Source: a virus. From it: DNA of 22,374 nt. The stretch is taken from IMG/VR virus record IMGVR_UViG_3300025652_007479, positions 1 to 22,374 of that record, one strand, 5' to 3'. This document shows positions 1 through 22,211 of this stretch, one piece after another. The position numbers and the translations under genes are program-made. Within the stretch, counting starts at the first letter, position 1, and the number at the start of each line of letters is the position of its first letter. Under the pieces are notes generated by a model. That model did not search any database and was not told the origin of the DNA. It worked only from the letters and a program-made list of their open reading frames with translations.

Positions 1-167
1 GAAATAGGATCGACAGGTAGTGTATAGTTAAGTGGAGAAGCAGGTGTGCAAACAACCTTAATCGTAAGACAACTACAAATGCAAACGATAATTTTGCGCC
101 TACAGGTTATGCTCTAGCAGCTTAGCACTGGTGGGTATGGGTTCCACCTAGAAACAGAACGGGCCTC
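1..167 (+). ncRNA. ssrA: tmRNA (ssrA), coding piece of a circularly permuted two-piece form; 5' end cut by the window edge
   Basis: tmRNA rescues stalled ribosomes and adds a degradation tag. The first bases carry a GGATCGACAGG block that matches the conserved GGATTCGACGGG region of bacterial tmRNA just inside the 5' acceptor strand. An AGGTGTGC block and TCGTAAGAC follow, resembling the E. coli AGGTGCATGC and TCGTAAAAA segments, and then a tag reading frame at 81-125. After the tag stop there is a hairpin (130-134 GGTGG with 144-148 CCACC), and a protein gene starts about 60 bases later. There is no room for pseudoknots 2-4, and no T-arm or CCA end follows. This is the order expected of permuted alphaproteobacterial ssrA, in which the acceptor piece lies upstream of the coding piece; that piece would be outside the window. 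The mature 3' end is not defined; 167 is a guess. Confidence in tmRNA is high, and in the permuted form good but indirect. Confidence 0.87.
81..125 (+). other. tmRNA tag-peptide reading frame
   Basis: Starting at the GCA resume codon, the frame reads ANDNFAPTGYALAA followed by TAG. With the alanine carried by the tmRNA itself, the appended peptide would be 15 residues. The AND start and ALAA end are hallmarks of proteobacterial tags, as in E. coli ANDENYALAA; the ANDNF start resembles the Caulobacter tag. The hydrophobic ALAA end is the signal recognised by ClpXP and related proteases. The exact resume codon is assigned by similarity to E. coli (GCA AAC GAC versus GCA AAC GAT here). Confidence 0.88.
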
Positions 168-187
168 TAATCATAATGAGAAATAAA

Positions 188-754
188 ATGAATAAATTAT
201 ATATTCTAGGAAACGGAAGTTTCGCTCAAGAAGTATTTGAGCAAATAATTGTGGCTAATCAAGTTAAGAATTTTGGAGGCTTTATTATTTTAAAAGATAA
301 TAAGGCTTTTTGTATAGGAGAAGAAGGTGCAGAAGCATTTACCTACCCATCAGAAGCTCAACTTATTCTTGGTACTGCCAATCCTCAGTGGAGAACACAA
401 TTCTATAATCACTTTTTAGGTTATTATGAACTCAATATTAATCATTGGCCTAATATGTCAGCACCTAATTCTTATCAGTCATTAAGTTCTACTGTAGGAA
501 TAGGTAATCTATTTTTAATGTATTCATTAGTAAATGCCAATACTCAAGTAGGTAACTTTAATTTATTATGCACGTACGCATCTATTAGTGTTAATTGTGC
601 AATAGGTAATCATAATGTGCTATCTCCTTATTCTTCTATATCTAAAAACGTATGTATAGAAAATAGTAATTTACTTGAATCAGGAGAGATACTTTTTGAA
701 GACCTCGAAAGTGAGTGTATATTAACTAACGGTGTAGTATACGCTAATGATTAA
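188..754 (+). CDS. Left-handed beta-helix acyltransferase-like protein (NeuD/PglD type), possibly inactive
   Basis: The N-terminus (MNKLYILGNGSFAQEV) resembles the Rossmann-like N-domain of NeuD/PglD sugar O- or N-acetyltransferases. Residues from about 95 onward show the hexapeptide periodicity of a left-handed beta helix (VGIGN, VGNFN, AIGNHN). In this family a histidine in the motif vxHxxxIG is the catalytic base. The corresponding stretch here reads ISVNCAIG, with Asn in place of His, and the usual GxPA closing motif is missing. It may therefore be a scaffold or a degenerate enzyme. I chose the ATG at 188 rather than the in-frame ATG at 176: it begins at the conserved MNKLYILG, and GAG at 178-180 can serve as a ribosome-binding site. 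It overlaps the next gene by 8 bases and begins the sugar cluster. Confidence 0.62.
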   Translation: MNKLYILGNGSFAQEVFEQIIVANQVKNFGGFIILKDNKAFCIGEEGAEAFTYPSEAQLILGTANPQWRTQFYNHFLGYYELNINHWPNMSAPNSYQSLSSTVGIGNLFLMYSLVNANTQVGNFNLLCTYASISVNCAIGNHNVLSPYSSISKNVCIENSNLLESGEILFEDLESECILTNGVVYAND

Positions 755-1421
755 AGTTGCCATAATGCAACCTTATGCATTTCCTTACTTTGGTTATTTA
801 CAACTCATGAAAGCCGTAGATCATTTTGTATTTATGGATGATGTTACTTTTATTAAAAAAGGTTGGATGAACAGAAATAAAATTATTGCTAATGGTGAAG
901 AACAAATATTTACTATTCCTGTTAATAAGATTTCTCAAAATAAAAAAATTAACGAACATTATATTAGTTCTCAATGGTCTACAAAATTAATTAGGTCAAT
1001 TCAACATAACTATCAGAAAAGTCCGTATTTTGAAGAATACTCTGTTCATCTTTTTTCACTTATAAAAGAATTAGAAGATAAAAAATTTTCAGATGGTTGT
1101 ATTTTAATTTTTGAAACTATAGCAGATATACTTAATATAACATCAAAATGGCATCTATCATCATCATTTGGTGTAGAACATTTAAAAGCAGAACAAAAGA
1201 TTATTACTATCTGTAATGAATTAGATGCAGATATGTATATAAATCCTATTGGAGGATTAAGTCTTGATTTTTATACTCAAGAACTATTTAGTCCAATCCA
1301 ATTACGTTTTATTAAACGACAAGATTCACTGTCTTCTACTTCTATAATAGATTTGTTATTTAGTGTGGGAGCAGAAGAACTTCGTAATAATATAGATAAA
1401 TATGAATTGATAAGTAAATGA
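747..1421 (+). CDS. WbqC-like family protein
   Basis: A 224-residue protein, close to the usual length of the WbqC-like family (about 230). The N-terminal block QPYAFPYFGYLQL, then the FVFMDDVTFIKKGWMNRNKI region (two adjacent conserved segments), is the family signature. WbqC-like proteins occur in O-antigen, capsule and related sugar biosynthesis loci, often beside aminotransferases and acyltransferases. Their exact reaction is poorly defined. This gene is very AT-rich: 11 of the 60 bases at 901-960 are G or C. Translation is probably coupled to the preceding gene through the 8-base overlap, since no strong ribosome-binding site is visible. Family call confident, function open. Confidence 0.85.
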   Translation: MIKVAIMQPYAFPYFGYLQLMKAVDHFVFMDDVTFIKKGWMNRNKIIANGEEQIFTIPVNKISQNKKINEHYISSQWSTKLIRSIQHNYQKSPYFEEYSVHLFSLIKELEDKKFSDGCILIFETIADILNITSKWHLSSSFGVEHLKAEQKIITICNELDADMYINPIGGLSLDFYTQELFSPIQLRFIKRQDSLSSTSIIDLLFSVGAEELRNNIDKYELISK

Positions 1422-12268: not shown

Positions 12269-12769
12269 ATGGATGATTTAGATGAGTTTTTTGCAAATCT
12301 AGAAAGCGACATGAAAAATAGCAAACTAGAAAGTGCTGCAACCTCAGAAAAAACAAGTTTAGACCGTAAAATTATTGATGATTTTCATGGCAACGTGCCT
12401 ATTTTTAACGAAGAAGTTACTGGACAATTACCTACTATTACTAAAAAAGCACAAATATATATTAGTGATGTTTTAGAAAAAGGACAATACTTTAGATTTG
12501 CAGTAGATGGAGGTGGTTGTTCTGGATTTAACTATGCTTTTGATGTAGAAACACATCCTAGAGATAATGATATACAATTTTCAGACAGTCCTCCTGCTAT
12601 AATTGATGACGTAAGTATAAAATATTTATATGGAAGTATAATTGACTTAGATACATCCAGCTTAAGTAAGCAACTGGTAGTAGATAATCCAGGTGCTAAA
12701 GCAAGTTGTGGCTGTGGAACCAGTTTTGCATTTGATGAAGCAATGTTATTAGAGGCAGGGATACAATGA
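12269..12769 (+). CDS. A-type iron-sulfur cluster carrier (IscA/ErpA/HesB-like)
   Basis: The C-terminal about 110 residues form an A-type carrier, which holds and delivers Fe-S clusters or iron. The three ligand cysteines are present: Cys84 in DGGGCSGFNYAF, and Cys147 and Cys149 in ASCGCGTSFAF, exactly the family pattern C-x(n)-C-x-C. Residues 1-55 are an acidic, low-complexity N-terminal extension (DDLDEFFANLESDMKNS) not found in the roughly 107-residue bacterial IscA. The gene follows its own promoter-like gap and the strongest local ribosome-binding site, and overlaps a Fe(II)-dependent oxygenase gene by 4 bases. It could sustain host or phage Fe-S enzymes during infection (inference). Confidence 0.93.
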   Translation: MDDLDEFFANLESDMKNSKLESAATSEKTSLDRKIIDDFHGNVPIFNEEVTGQLPTITKKAQIYISDVLEKGQYFRFAVDGGGCSGFNYAFDVETHPRDNDIQFSDSPPAIIDDVSIKYLYGSIIDLDTSSLSKQLVVDNPGAKASCGCGTSFAFDEAMLLEAGIQ

Positions 12770-13398
12770 AGTATAAAGAAATAGTAACTGAAAGTGGTTT
12801 ACCTTGGTTAGGACTTGATATAGATATACCTCATGAAAAAATGTTACAAGAAGCTGTAGATCTTAAAGATGAATTTGTTAAACATAGAGATGAAGATAAT
12901 GGTGGAGGTTATAGGCATAAAGGATGGAGAAGTTTATGTATACATGGAATAGATCCATATAAAACTAATCATTATGAGCAATATGGTTATAAATCAAATA
13001 ATGAAACTCCTTACACTTGGACAGATATATGTGCACGATGTCCTATAACTAATGAATTTTTTAAATATTATTTTCCATATGATGTATATTATAGAGTAAG
13101 ATTTATGTTACTAGAGCCACAAGGGTATATTACTCCACATAAAGACTCTCAAGAACATAGATTATCACCTGTTAATATAGCACTGAATAATCCTGAAGGT
13201 TGTAATTTTAAAATGAAAGGTCATAAAGGATATTTACCTTTTGCTCCTGGAAAATCACTATTACTAGATGTAGGTAATACACACGCAGTATATAATAACA
13301 GTGATGAAGATAGATACCATATAATAGTACATGGTAAAATAACAAAAGAATTTAAAGAGTTGGTAGAGCGTAGTTATGCGAAAAATGGGCCTCAATAA
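12766..13398 (+). CDS. Aspartyl/asparaginyl beta-hydroxylase-like Fe(II)/2OG oxygenase
   Basis: The 210-residue protein carries the double-stranded beta-helix core of the AspH-like oxygenases. RVRFMLLEPQGYITPHKDSQ gives H125-x-D127, the second half LLLDVGNTHAVYNNSDEDR gives H173 as the third iron ligand, and Arg183 is placed to bind 2-oxoglutarate. PVNIALNNPEGCNF is the typical intervening strand. The substrate could be a protein side chain or a free small molecule. It is ATGA-linked to the Fe-S carrier gene upstream and overlaps the next gene by 23 bases, so the three appear co-translated. Confidence 0.84.
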   Translation: MKYKEIVTESGLPWLGLDIDIPHEKMLQEAVDLKDEFVKHRDEDNGGGYRHKGWRSLCIHGIDPYKTNHYEQYGYKSNNETPYTWTDICARCPITNEFFKYYFPYDVYYRVRFMLLEPQGYITPHKDSQEHRLSPVNIALNNPEGCNFKMKGHKGYLPFAPGKSLLLDVGNTHAVYNNSDEDRYHIIVHGKITKEFKELVERSYAKNGPQ

Positions 13399-17244: not shown

Positions 17245-18684
17245 ATGCCAGAAATTCTAGCACTATTATCAGGAACTTTTTATGGACTACTAATAGGCAT
17301 AATTCCTGGAGCAGGCGCTACTACTGGTCTTATTTTTCTATTTAGCTTTATTACACTATTTCCAGATCCATATCTAGCTGTTATTTTTGTTATGGCAGTA
17401 GTTGCTGCCAGTACTACAGGAGATACATATACAGGAGTCTTATTAGGTATTCCTGGTGCAAACTCCGCAGCTGCTACTATGCTTGATGGTTTTCCCTTAG
17501 CACTACAAGGTAAAGCTACCTATGCTATTAGTGCTGCTGTTATAACATCTACTATAAATGGTTTACTTTGGGGATCACTTACTTTCTTTTTATTACCTTG
17601 GTATACTAATTTAATACTAATATTCGGAGTTCCTGAGTTATGGGCTTTTACTATGTTAGCACTAGCTACAGTAACCTTCATAAGTAATAAATGGTGGGTC
17701 AGAGGATTAATGGCGCTTGCTGCAGGAATCTTTATCGGTATGATAGGAGTTGATCCTAATACTAATTTAGATAGATGGACCGGTGGCTGGGAATATCTAG
17801 GAGCTGGAGTACAATTACTTCCAATGATAGCGGGTTTATTTGCTATTCCTGAACTTATTGATGGACTAGCTAGAAGAAGAAATACTGCTGATTCTACTAT
17901 ATCAAATGGTAGACAGACACTAGATGGTATAAAAGCTGTATGGGATAACAGATGGTTAGCTCTACGTGGAGGTTGTATAGGCGCTTTTATAGGAGTACTT
18001 CCTGGTCTAGGTGGTGCAATGGCAGACTGGATGGCTTACGGTCAAGCAGTAGCTACTACTAAAAATCCAGATGTTCCCTTTGGTAAAGGTAATATAAGAG
18101 GAGTTATCGGGCCAGAAGGTGCTAATAATGCACAAAAAGCTACCTCAATGATTCCTACAGTGCTATTCGGAATCCCTGGTGCTCCTTTTGCGGCAATTAT
18201 TATTGGATTGTTTGCATATTTAGATTTTGAACTGGGTACTGTTGATTTAGCAATGGATACCAAGTTTTTTGATAGTATGCTGTTTGGATTTATGATGGCT
18301 ACTATACTTGTAGCTATATTGTGTATACTTTTAACTAAGTATATAGCTAAAATTGCTAATGTACCTTATAAATATTATTTTCCGTTACTATTAGCTTTTA
18401 TAGTACTTGCTTGTGTTCAGTATACAGGAGGATGGGAAGACTATGCTATACTCATAGTTTGCTCCTTAATAGGTATATTAGCTAAAAAATTCAAGTTCTC
18501 AAGACCTGCATTATTATTTGGTTTTATACTTGCAGAAAGAATTGAAGCACTGAGTATACAAATGTATGGTATGTATACTTTTGATAGGTTATTAACAAGA
18601 CCTATATTCTGGACACTGATCGGTGTTATTTTTATTATATTGGTTTGGGGATTATCCAAACGTAACAAGTTAGAATATGCGTAA
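17245..18684 (+). CDS. tctA: Tripartite tricarboxylate transporter large membrane subunit TctA
   Basis: TctA is the sodium- or proton-coupled permease of TTT systems, in the inner membrane. The 479 residues form about ten to twelve hydrophobic segments. The two family repeats are visible: GIIPGAGATTGLIF (18-31) with GVLLGIPGANSAAATMLDG, and GVLPGLGGAMADWMAYGQA with VLFGIPGAPFAAIIIG. The N-terminus appears about 20-30 residues shorter than typical TctA, so the first hydrophobic segment begins almost at the start Met. No small TctB subunit is encoded next to it. The ATG directly follows the previous stop. An unusual cargo for a phage; the family call is very strong. Confidence 0.95.
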   Translation: MPEILALLSGTFYGLLIGIIPGAGATTGLIFLFSFITLFPDPYLAVIFVMAVVAASTTGDTYTGVLLGIPGANSAAATMLDGFPLALQGKATYAISAAVITSTINGLLWGSLTFFLLPWYTNLILIFGVPELWAFTMLALATVTFISNKWWVRGLMALAAGIFIGMIGVDPNTNLDRWTGGWEYLGAGVQLLPMIAGLFAIPELIDGLARRRNTADSTISNGRQTLDGIKAVWDNRWLALRGGCIGAFIGVLPGLGGAMADWMAYGQAVATTKNPDVPFGKGNIRGVIGPEGANNAQKATSMIPTVLFGIPGAPFAAIIIGLFAYLDFELGTVDLAMDTKFFDSMLFGFMMATILVAILCILLTKYIAKIANVPYKYYFPLLLAFIVLACVQYTGGWEDYAILIVCSLIGILAKKFKFSRPALLFGFILAERIEALSIQMYGMYTFDRLLTRPIFWTLIGVIFIILVWGLSKRNKLEYA

Positions 18685-18697
18685 AAAAGGAATATTA

Positions 18698-19744
18698 ATG
18701 AAACGCTTACTATTATCTGTAGCAGCTGCTACTATGCTAGCTACATCTGCTATAGCAGACTATACTTTTGTAGTACCCCAAAGAGCGGGTCAAGGCACTA
18801 CCGTGTGGGCGGAAATTATTGCAAAAGAACTAGAACCTTTTCTAGGAGAGTCTATTACTATTAAAATGTTGCCAGGAGCTAGAGACATTCCTGGATTTAA
18901 TGAATGGCATAATGAAATGCGTGATGATGATAAAACTGTCATGGTATCTCACGGAGGAAATGGTGTATCATTTCTACAAGAAAATGTAGATTATGATTAT
19001 CGTGAATACGATAGTGTAGGTATGATGAATCTAAATATCATTGCAGGAAAACGTAAAGGTGAAAATATGGATAAACCTTATTTTCCTGCAGGATCTGGTA
19101 TGGTTCCCGAAGCATTTGCTATTGCACTAATGATTTGTGGCCCTGATAAGTCAGTAGAAGAGTATATTGCTTGCTTTAAAGAAAATGTAACATGGGTTAA
19201 AGGTATGAAAACTGCGGAACGTAGATTAGCCTTTAAACGTGGGGAACTGACAGGGACTCGCGAGAATCCTGCAACATATAAAAAACATGTGGAGCCTGAT
19301 GAAAACGCCGAACTCTGGTTTCATCATGGATTGCTACAACCTGATGGGTCACACGCAGATGACACAAACTATCCAGCAGGTTATCAAGTAGAACAAATAT
19401 TTGAAGCACGATGGGGAGTAGCACCTAGTGGAGAGTTCTATGATACTTATAAGTTAGTTAAATCGTTTCGTGACGGTCTACAAAAAGCTCTTTGGGTAAA
19501 TAAAGATAATCCTAATAGAGATAAACTTGCAGCCGCGCTAACAGCTATGAGTAAAGATCCTGATGCAATCGCAGCATTGATTAGAAAAAATGGTGATTAT
19601 GATTGGTATATTGGAGAAGCAGGAGATGCACAACGTGATAAACTATTAACTTTTGTAACTGCTAGCACTTTACAGAATCTAGTTAAGTTTAATAGTGAAG
19701 CTTTAGGATTAGCTAGTGTTTATAAAGAAGGCTTGGTAGACTAA
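18698..19744 (+). CDS. tctC: TctC/Bug-like periplasmic substrate-binding protein
   Basis: It begins with a clear Sec signal peptide, MKRLLLSVAAATMLATSAIA, with cleavage expected before DYTF. The mature N-terminus YTFVVPQRAGQGTTVWAEII, then KELEPFLGESITIKMLPGARD, follows the TctC/Bug pattern VPFPAGGxTDxxAR..LGxxVVVENxPGA, with Gln-Gly in place of the usual GG. The rest is divergent from known Bug proteins. I chose the ATG at 18698, preceded by AAGGA, over one at 18677 that would add seven residues before the signal peptide. It directly follows tctA, so the pair probably forms a transporter. Ligand not predictable; citrate, other di/tricarboxylates or 2-oxoglutarate are candidates. G+C is higher here (26 of 60 at 19261-19320). 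Confidence 0.8.
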   Translation: MKRLLLSVAAATMLATSAIADYTFVVPQRAGQGTTVWAEIIAKELEPFLGESITIKMLPGARDIPGFNEWHNEMRDDDKTVMVSHGGNGVSFLQENVDYDYREYDSVGMMNLNIIAGKRKGENMDKPYFPAGSGMVPEAFAIALMICGPDKSVEEYIACFKENVTWVKGMKTAERRLAFKRGELTGTRENPATYKKHVEPDENAELWFHHGLLQPDGSHADDTNYPAGYQVEQIFEARWGVAPSGEFYDTYKLVKSFRDGLQKALWVNKDNPNRDKLAAALTAMSKDPDAIAALIRKNGDYDWYIGEAGDAQRDKLLTFVTASTLQNLVKFNSEALGLASVYKEGLVD

Positions 19745-20471: not shown

Positions 20472-22211
20472 ATGATATATAAAGAACTTAAAACACTTAT
20501 TCAAAAACATAGTAAACTGTACTATGACGACTATGCTCCTGAGATTACAGATGCAGAGTTTGATCAACTGTATGACAAGCTAGAAGCTATGGAATCCGCT
20601 CAAGGCTGGCGTGATCATGATTCTCCTACTTTCCGCGTAGGTGGGAAGGCAGGCAAAGTAACTCATCCCTATCCTTTATACTCATTGCGTAAAGTATATG
20701 ATATAGACGAAGTTGATGCGTTTATGGATGTTAGACTCCCTAAAATTGATGGTACTAATCTTAGTTTAATTTATACTAATGGTAAATTATCTCTTGCTGT
20801 CACTCGCGGTAATGGTGAGCGTGGAGAAGATGTTACACATCTTGCAGGCGCTATTTCTAATATACCTACACGTATAGATACTCATTTAGATGAAGTAGTG
20901 ATTAACGGTGAATGTGTAACTAATAACGAAGTAGATAACTTTAGAAATTATGTTAGTGGTGCGCTCGGTCTTAAATCTGCTAAAGAGTTTGCAGAACGTA
21001 ACATTATATTTATTGCTCATGACTGGCTAGGCACAGAAATGAATTATAAAGCCCGTATGAATATTGTAAAAAATATGGGATTCTTCACAGTTCTAGAAGA
21101 TGATGCATGGACCTATCCTATGGATGGTGTAGTATATCGTGCTGATTCATATGCTAAATCTGTAAGGCTAGGTTACACATCTAAGTTTCCTAAATTTGCA
21201 GTAGCACTCAAAGAACGTGAAACAGAAACAGCTATTACTACTCTACAAGATGTATTATGGGTAGTAGGTAGAACTGGCACAGTAAATCCTACAGCAGTTG
21301 TTGATCCTGTGGTATTGGAAGATGCTACAATTTCTAGAGTTACCTTACATAATTTAGGTATTATCGAAGAACATAATCTTGGATTGGGCGACATGATCCA
21401 GATTGAACGTGCTGGCGGTGTTATACCTAAGTTTCTTCGTGTAATCGAACACTCTAAGCATGGTATTAAGATAACTAAAAATCATGCAGAAACTACCATT
21501 GGTATGGATACAAAGTTAGATGGTCCTAGGTTAATGGTTGCTGATAAGAGTAATATAAATTCATCAAAAGTTTTAGAACATTTTATTAAGACTCTTGATA
21601 TTAAAGGATTAGGTCCAGCTTCTGTAAAGAAAATGGGACTAACACATCCAGTAGATCTTTTCGAAGATCAAAACTGGAATCTACTTGGTGTCAATGGTGC
21701 CAAGGTTCAAGCTGAGATAGAAAGAACAAAAACCAAACCTTATGATCTTGTTCTAGCATCTCTTGGAATGACAGGGGTAGGTAAACGTGCTTCTAAGTTA
21801 ATTATTAGTAAGATACCTGCTTTTAGAAATCTAAGAGATATTGAAACTACAGATATTAAAGGTATTGGTCCTTCGACAATAGAATCGGTACTGTCGTGGC
21901 TTGATGAAAATGAAGAGTGGGTATTAACCTTACCTCTACAACTCGAACAGAATGTGACAGTTGAAGAAGTAGTCGGAACCCCTGCTCGTAAAATCTGTAT
22001 TACGGGAAAGTTAGATATGACTCGTAATCAGTTAGGCGATATTCTAGAAAAACTTGGATTCAAAGTAACTAACACTGTGACTAAAGATTGTTATGCTTTG
22101 ATAACCGGCGGAGATACTACATCTTCTAAATATAAAAAAGCTAATACAATGGGAATATCTGTAATCGACTATTGGTCAAGTAAAAAAGATGTGTTATCTG
22201 GTGATTTCTAA
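20472..22211 (+). CDS. ligA: NAD-dependent DNA ligase lacking the zinc finger
   Basis: It seals nicks in DNA using NAD+. Domains in order: Ia (about 1-50, ELKTLIQKHSKLYY..PEITDAEFD) that binds NMN; adenylation domain with nucleophile Lys91 in LPKIDGTNLS, TRGNGERGED and NGEC; an OB-like region (VVGRTGTVNPTAVVDPV, TLHN, IERAGGVIPK); helix-hairpin-helix region (LDIKGLGPASVKK, GVGKRASKL, IKGIGPSTI); and C-terminal BRCT (RKICITGKLDMTRNQLG). It is 579 residues against about 670 in bacteria. The four-cysteine zinc finger is missing: only three Cys occur in the entire protein, none in pairs. The lesion-binding role of the finger may be replaced by phage proteins. Confidence 0.94.
   Translation: MIYKELKTLIQKHSKLYYDDYAPEITDAEFDQLYDKLEAMESAQGWRDHDSPTFRVGGKAGKVTHPYPLYSLRKVYDIDEVDAFMDVRLPKIDGTNLSLIYTNGKLSLAVTRGNGERGEDVTHLAGAISNIPTRIDTHLDEVVINGECVTNNEVDNFRNYVSGALGLKSAKEFAERNIIFIAHDWLGTEMNYKARMNIVKNMGFFTVLEDDAWTYPMDGVVYRADSYAKSVRLGYTSKFPKFAVALKERETETAITTLQDVLWVVGRTGTVNPTAVVDPVVLEDATISRVTLHNLGIIEEHNLGLGDMIQIERAGGVIPKFLRVIEHSKHGIKITKNHAETTIGMDTKLDGPRLMVADKSNINSSKVLEHFIKTLDIKGLGPASVKKMGLTHPVDLFEDQNWNLLGVNGAKVQAEIERTKTKPYDLVLASLGMTGVGKRASKLIISKIPAFRNLRDIETTDIKGIGPSTIESVLSWLDENEEWVLTLPLQLEQNVTVEEVVGTPARKICITGKLDMTRNQLGDILEKLGFKVTNTVTKDCYALITGGDTTSSKYKKANTMGISVIDYWSSKKDVLSGDF

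Follow-up and report, generated by a model that had tools for sequence, protein, structure and literature searches.

The window analysed here, the entire IMG/VR record of 22,374 bases, starts inside a genuine phage two-piece tmRNA gene, a new member of a published kind. Comparison with its relatives suggests that the permuted tmRNAs of phages probably form a lineage of their own, in which the spacer between the acceptor and coding pieces would be a helix-closed, exchangeable cargo slot that has repeatedly acquired different small genes with their own ribosome-binding sites. The gene order, pairing, tag, spacer statistics and selection described below are read directly from the sequences compared.

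An earlier note had recognized the 5' core and tag of a tmRNA at the start of the window. Rfam family RF04321 (tmRNA_permuted) matches positions 1–125 on the plus strand with 53.1 bits (E 5e-8; gathering score 47), and the match begins at model position 93 of 213, its 5' side being cut off. Since the window is the whole IMG/VR record, base 1 is the contig end. In the Rfam alignment it falls on G7 of the acceptor stem and is followed by the conserved D-arm GAAATAGGATCGACAGG (positions 1–17, plus strand; the counterpart in relatives is GGGGCTG followed by AAATAGGATCGACAGG) and by the helical region 5' of the resume codon (18–80, plus strand). The tag frame, ANDNFAPTGYALAA with the stop codon TAG (81–125, plus strand), begins with an Ala codon and ends with an Ala-rich degron, and ARAGORN calls the same tag in relatives. 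The 3' part of the coding piece (126–167, plus strand) contains the conserved AACAGAA at a distance of 27 nt from the stop, the short form typical of phages. The coding piece ends near position 167 and protein genes follow, as had been stated, the first of them (176–754, plus strand, ATG at 176 or 188) belonging to no Pfam family. ARAGORN reports neither a complete tmRNA nor a tRNA in the window; this silence is expected, because the acceptor piece would precede base 1 and the gene is cut mid-way. In line with the reported lack of a T-arm and 3' domain, neither ARAGORN nor Rfam detects a one-piece 3' domain in the window. Rfam families other than tmRNA, including the glutamine riboswitch of the Melnitz type, are absent from the window and six relatives.

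Relatives reaching further upstream were found with the WbqC-like protein (747–1421, plus strand) as a synteny anchor. ARAGORN identifies complete permuted tmRNAs in L001, L002, L004, L006, L007, and L008, and the gene order in relatives is acceptor piece, spacer, coding piece. The tag is that of the window in L001, L002, L004, L007, and L008, and ANNNFAPTGYALAA in L006. Coding pieces are 99% identical to that of the window in L002 and L004, 98% in L001, and 93% in L006 and L007; the tmRNA of L008 is the same as that of L007. Five complete relatives score 114–127 bits for RF04321 and 95–109 bits for RF01849 (alpha_tmRNA), and this double match bears out the proposal of a permuted two-piece gene of the alpha type. 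The acceptor piece, with T-arm, acceptor 3' strand and encoded CCA, lies upstream in all six of these loci, where the earlier note had placed it, and its 3' part, GGACTCGGGGGCAGTACCCGACAGCTCCACCA, pairs with GGGGCTG of the coding piece. In the close relatives GGGGCTG pairs with CAGCTCC over 7 of 7 bp with a G3-U70 wobble, of which stem the window itself holds G7 only; G3-U70 is the mark of alanine identity. Among the matches listed, the acceptor stem is preserved in other loci via several alternative 7-bp pairings. The T-loop GGCAGTA was considered as a phage oddity and rejected, as a loop of this kind is part of the alpha_tmRNA consensus and GGCAGTA itself is frequent in cellular tmRNAs. The spacer and acceptor piece of the window's own gene both lie off the contig, and the spacer was not found in the sequence collections searched, so that the spacer results below come from relatives; the acceptor is expected to be CAGCTCCACCA, accompanied by one of the known spacer types.

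Pattern scans yielded at least 161 distinct viral and at least 119 cellular permuted tmRNA coding starts. The tag AN[DN]NFAPTGYALAA is present in at least 51 viral loci and in none of the searched contigs of 84,980 bacterial and archaeal species. In a quick maximum-likelihood tree of the acceptor and coding pieces (181 rows, 233 columns) the 63 cellular rows fall together in a single group (SH-aLRT 98), the remainder being phage rows; this phage/cell comparison is limited by the sampling of cellular tmRNAs with one exact D-arm pattern. Two changes between phage and cell are needed on this tree, or one if locus L164 is taken as phage; on a tree of the pre-tag sequence only, the numbers are three and two, respectively. 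L164 (FZLS01000082.1) is filed as a Rhodobacteraceae MAG and encodes three tRNAs as well as a phage-type tmRNA, and its small genes resemble those of phages; it is probably mis-binned phage DNA, and was counted both ways because of this resemblance and its place among the phages on the tree. Members of the window's clade, L001 and L007, are placed among phages, apart from cellular alphaproteobacterial ssrA. The median distance from the stop to AACAGAA is 27 nt in phages versus 41.5 nt in cells.

A recent capture of the tmRNA from SAR11 or another alphaproteobacterial host, which would make the gene an indicator of that host, is unlikely. The alpha-type fold and the GGCAGTA T-loop, common to alphaproteobacteria, are consistent with it, and the authors of the Melnitz study favour an origin of the gene in the alphaproteobacterial lineage (PMC9004378). 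However, a single phage/cell change among 181 tmRNAs (two with the pre-tag sequence only, L164 being taken as phage) and the phage-type stop-to-AACAGAA distance, shared by the window, speak against it. So does the tag of the SAR11 phage HTVC008M, ANFNEYALAA, which differs from the commonest tags of a Pelagibacteraceae-rich cellular set (ANESYALAA, ANDKFALAA, and ANQKFALAA, among the matches listed). We infer that the phage tmRNA is an old phage lineage rather than a recent copy of a host gene. Cultured carriers of the alpha type are Melnitz, which infects the methylotroph OM43 (Methylophilales), Phosso (Sinorhizobium) and HTVC008M (SAR11). Because the phage branch is separate from the sampled cellular tmRNAs and its carriers infect such different hosts, the alpha type does not reveal the host, and the suggestion that it points to the host class was not upheld: an alpha-type tmRNA in a phage is no proof of an alphaproteobacterial host.

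Spacers were compared at loci taken by exact patterns, so that the proportions given here hold among the matches listed and are no census; an acceptor piece was counted as present only where the full 7-bp acceptor stem pairs. With the same D-arm pattern, the median spacer length among the matches listed is 76–77 nt in viruses (n = 136) versus 16 nt in cells (n = 107; p 1e-24), and spacers of at least 60 nt make up 60% of the viral and 2% of the cellular ones. Coding pieces that are 99–100% identical carry unrelated spacers of 28 nt (L029), 109 nt (L061), and 137 nt (L050). Within the window's clade, where coding pieces are 98–99% identical, three unrelated spacers of 25 nt (L001), 75 nt (L004), and 93 nt (L002) occur, none of these three types containing an ORF. 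Conversely, L006 and L014 have nearly the same spacer (95% identity) next to diverged coding pieces (72%). The ends of the spacers pair, with a mean longest uninterrupted helix of 10–11 bp versus about 6 bp in shuffled sequences, and the closing helix of ORF-bearing spacers measures 9.8 bp versus 6.5 bp in shuffles. No tRNA gene was found inside any of 95 spacers.

Several further observations concern the tmRNA loci and their surroundings. Sinorhizobium phage Phosso (L063) encodes an alpha-type permuted tmRNA, unannotated in its record, with a 410-nt spacer lacking a clear ORF. Inspection by eye revealed a tRNA-like gene ending in CCA shortly upstream of the acceptor piece in L050, L054, and L061. 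A promoter-like site, TTGAC-N16-19-TAnnA, is located just 5' of 64 of 129 viral tmRNA genes without a nested ORF and 11 of 25 with one, and the same pattern precedes none of 107 cellular tmRNA genes, all among the matches listed. The window's clade has no such site, and there an upstream ORF extends into the acceptor piece.

Small protein genes nested in the spacers were defined by an ATG start, a Shine-Dalgarno-like site and coverage of at least 60% of the spacer. Among the matches listed, 75 non-redundant viral spacers measure at least 60 nt, and 22 of them contain such an ORF, versus 0.98 expected in dinucleotide shuffles; of 107 cellular spacers, few of which are long enough, none has one. 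In homologous pairs pN is well below pS (0.16 over 0.64, 0.13 over 0.52, 0.09 over 0.46, 0.18 over 0.55, and 0.22 over 0.56). Values of 0.09 over 0.20 were obtained for Melnitz and L261, whose conservation may partly stem from the RNA, because the codons extend into the tmRNA coding piece. Judged by these values, the homologous nested ORFs, which belong to several families, are under purifying selection. One family (L244 and L358) is 52.5% identical to a homologue in Melnitz (45792–45974), inside an annotated CDS (45780–45980) located directly 5' of ssrA and outside the tmRNA. On the tmRNA tree the ORF-bearing state changes 20 times for 22 rows, as expected if cassettes move. At least one carrier of a nested ORF is a T4-like phage, since the L335 contig contains gp23 and terminase. 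A KYL(S/G)G-type motif is common to the spacer ORFs of Melnitz, L033, L341, L308, and L261. The Melnitz ORF, starting with MFKWLSKTRLVVITRDYF (L062 2872–3036; Melnitz 46096 onward), is unannotated.

It is improbable that these small ORFs are chance frames in AT-rich RNA and the long spacers filler. The nested proteins have no Pfam family and no convincing PHROG match, and many of their reading frames have no private stop codon and run to one supplied by conserved tmRNA flank sequence (TTTGAT or GAAATAG), as chance frames would have it; the excess over shuffles, the low pN relative to pS in homologous pairs from several families and the annotated gene of one family outside the tmRNA in Melnitz all speak against chance. 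Among the 22 non-redundant spacers with an ORF, 9 have a nested stop codon whose end is 1 nt short of the coding piece, and another 6 have one lying 13 nt past the coding-piece boundary; given that many stops come from the conserved flank, this position alone is no proof of regulation. Recurrent protein genes under protein-level selection, nested in a processed structural RNA gene, are unusual and bear on phage gene packing and on the evolution of permuted RNA genes. Small phage proteins can be missed in this way, because the stretch is annotated as tmRNA.

The contig itself has the character of a phage. A DUF3310/phrog_480 phage protein (15911–16438, plus strand) and a phage-like NAD-dependent DNA ligase (20472–22211, plus strand), the latter present also on syntenic viral contigs, are accompanied by a run of glycan genes and aspartyl/asparaginyl beta-hydroxylase-like proteins (one at 12766–13398, plus strand). 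The syntenic 45.6-kb contig G008 encodes a lysis cassette of endolysin and two Rz-type spanins together with a phage exonuclease. In all six relatives that reach upstream, a gene for ribosomal protein bS21 is found near the tmRNA; it lies upstream in L008 (7364–7717), G001, G002, G004, G006, and G007, and the L008 protein has a long basic C-terminal extension. The proposal that the tmRNA is phage-borne agrees with its flanking genes in relatives, which are phage genes and not host chromosomal ones. The search for virion hallmarks gave a divided answer: gp23 and terminase are absent from the window and from ten relatives of 15–46 kb, while a 121-kb T4-like contig with the tag of the window (L026, G011) carries both T4 gp23 and terminase. 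The proteins of the window led to no close cultured relative. Pelagimyophages are reported to share bS21, Asp/Asn hydroxylase and LPS genes, the hydroxylase being named as core (PMC7029224). The fit of bS21, hydroxylase and glycan genes, along with the same-tag T4-like contig, makes a pelagimyophage-like (T4-like, Kyanoviridae) virus the likely source of the window. At 17245–19744 the window also encodes TctA of a tripartite tricarboxylate transporter (Pfam 326 bits) and, after it, a secreted protein of solute-binding-like type; the best matches of this TctA in phage collections are below 32% identity, and L370 (5986–8601) has neighbours resembling the pair.

IMG/VR contigs can contain mis-sorted DNA, and the contig might be an alphaproteobacterial chromosome or a mis-sorted cellular fragment with the host's own tmRNA. 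The lack of a virion gene in the window and the many glycan genes and TctA-like transporter, types that occur in cells too, would fit such an origin, but the lysis genes and exonuclease of G008, the phrog_480 protein and ligase on the window, a tag found in no cellular genome searched and a tmRNA in the phage branch make it very improbable. There is equally little to be said for a non-functional remnant or integration scar (attachment-site fragment): the window displays only part of the gene and phages often integrate into ssrA, but the truncation coincides with the contig end, relatives whose coding pieces are 93–99% identical have the whole gene and a paired acceptor stem, and the tag peptide stays constant despite synonymous codon changes (in a subset picked by tag). 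The role of ssrA as a phage integration site is noted in PMC9004378.

Taken together, the gene is very likely a phage-encoded permuted alpha-type tmRNA that would work via host SmpB and belongs to an old phage lineage, in which the spacer is an exchanged hairpin loop that often holds a small gene. Processing, charging, SmpB use and rescue are here extrapolated from tmRNA biology. The precursor would be cut by tRNA-processing enzymes, the spacer removed, and the acceptor and coding pieces paired. The mature tmRNA would be charged with alanine and bound by SmpB of the host, none of the 20 phage records searched encoding an SmpB. During infection it could then free ribosomes that have stalled on broken mRNA, adding a ClpXP-type tag ending in ALAA to the stalled products; ribosome rescue or retargeting of degradation by the phage tmRNA is plausible. 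Phages would exchange the loop of the spacer hairpin among themselves, and the small protein gene often found in it would presumably be transcribed together with the tmRNA. More speculatively, tmRNA maturation may truncate the mRNA of the nested gene, cutting it at the stop or leaving it stopless, and thereby make it a target of the same tmRNA. That the tmRNA could regulate the nested gene's product, or tag it, is put forward purely as a hypothesis, separate from the likelihood given to the phage lineage and its cargo slot.

Phage two-piece tmRNAs are a known kind, since one was published in 2022 for the cultured OM43 phage Melnitz (MZ577097) and the same paper lists 53 phage cases, of which 50 come from marine or aquatic samples (PMC9004378). 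Like the gene at the start of the window, Melnitz ssrA is phage-borne, permuted and of the alpha type, and window positions 1–130 align with it at 70% identity; unlike it, Melnitz ssrA encodes the tag ANDNYVPVDYALAA and is located next to genes for a late transcription coactivator and a helicase loader, whereas the neighbours in the window are a glycan cluster. The 142-nt spacer of Melnitz holds the unannotated ORF (MFKWLSK...), of which no mention was found in the available part of PMC9004378. With both Melnitz and its OM43 host in culture, translation of the nested ORF and activity of the tag are directly testable. Pelagibacter phage HTVC008M (KC465899, 145103–145414), a T4-like SAR11 phage, likewise has an alpha-type permuted tmRNA, with the tag given above; it is unannotated in the record, and its 5' part overlaps an annotated CDS (144891–145181).

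Alphaproteobacterial tmRNAs (RF01849 and RF04321) share with the phage forms the permuted order, the T-loop GGCAGTA or GGCGGTA, CCA, a paired acceptor stem and a tag ending in ALAA or similar. The phage forms differ in branching apart, in the shorter 3' part of the coding piece and in their long variable spacers, whereas spacers in alphaproteobacterial cells are short (median 16 nt) and free of ORFs, among the matches listed. No description of a protein gene in a tmRNA spacer was found in the accessible part of the openly licensed literature, an absence that supports priority only weakly. The 2025 tmRNA database paper, in its available part, describes permuted intervening sequences with one tRNA-Ala and one repetitive element (PMC11915505), and no mention of a protein gene in such a sequence was found there. 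Those cases have in common with the present ones extra sequence between the two tmRNA pieces. They are, however, single cellular oddities, whereas the phage spacers described here contain recurrent small protein genes.
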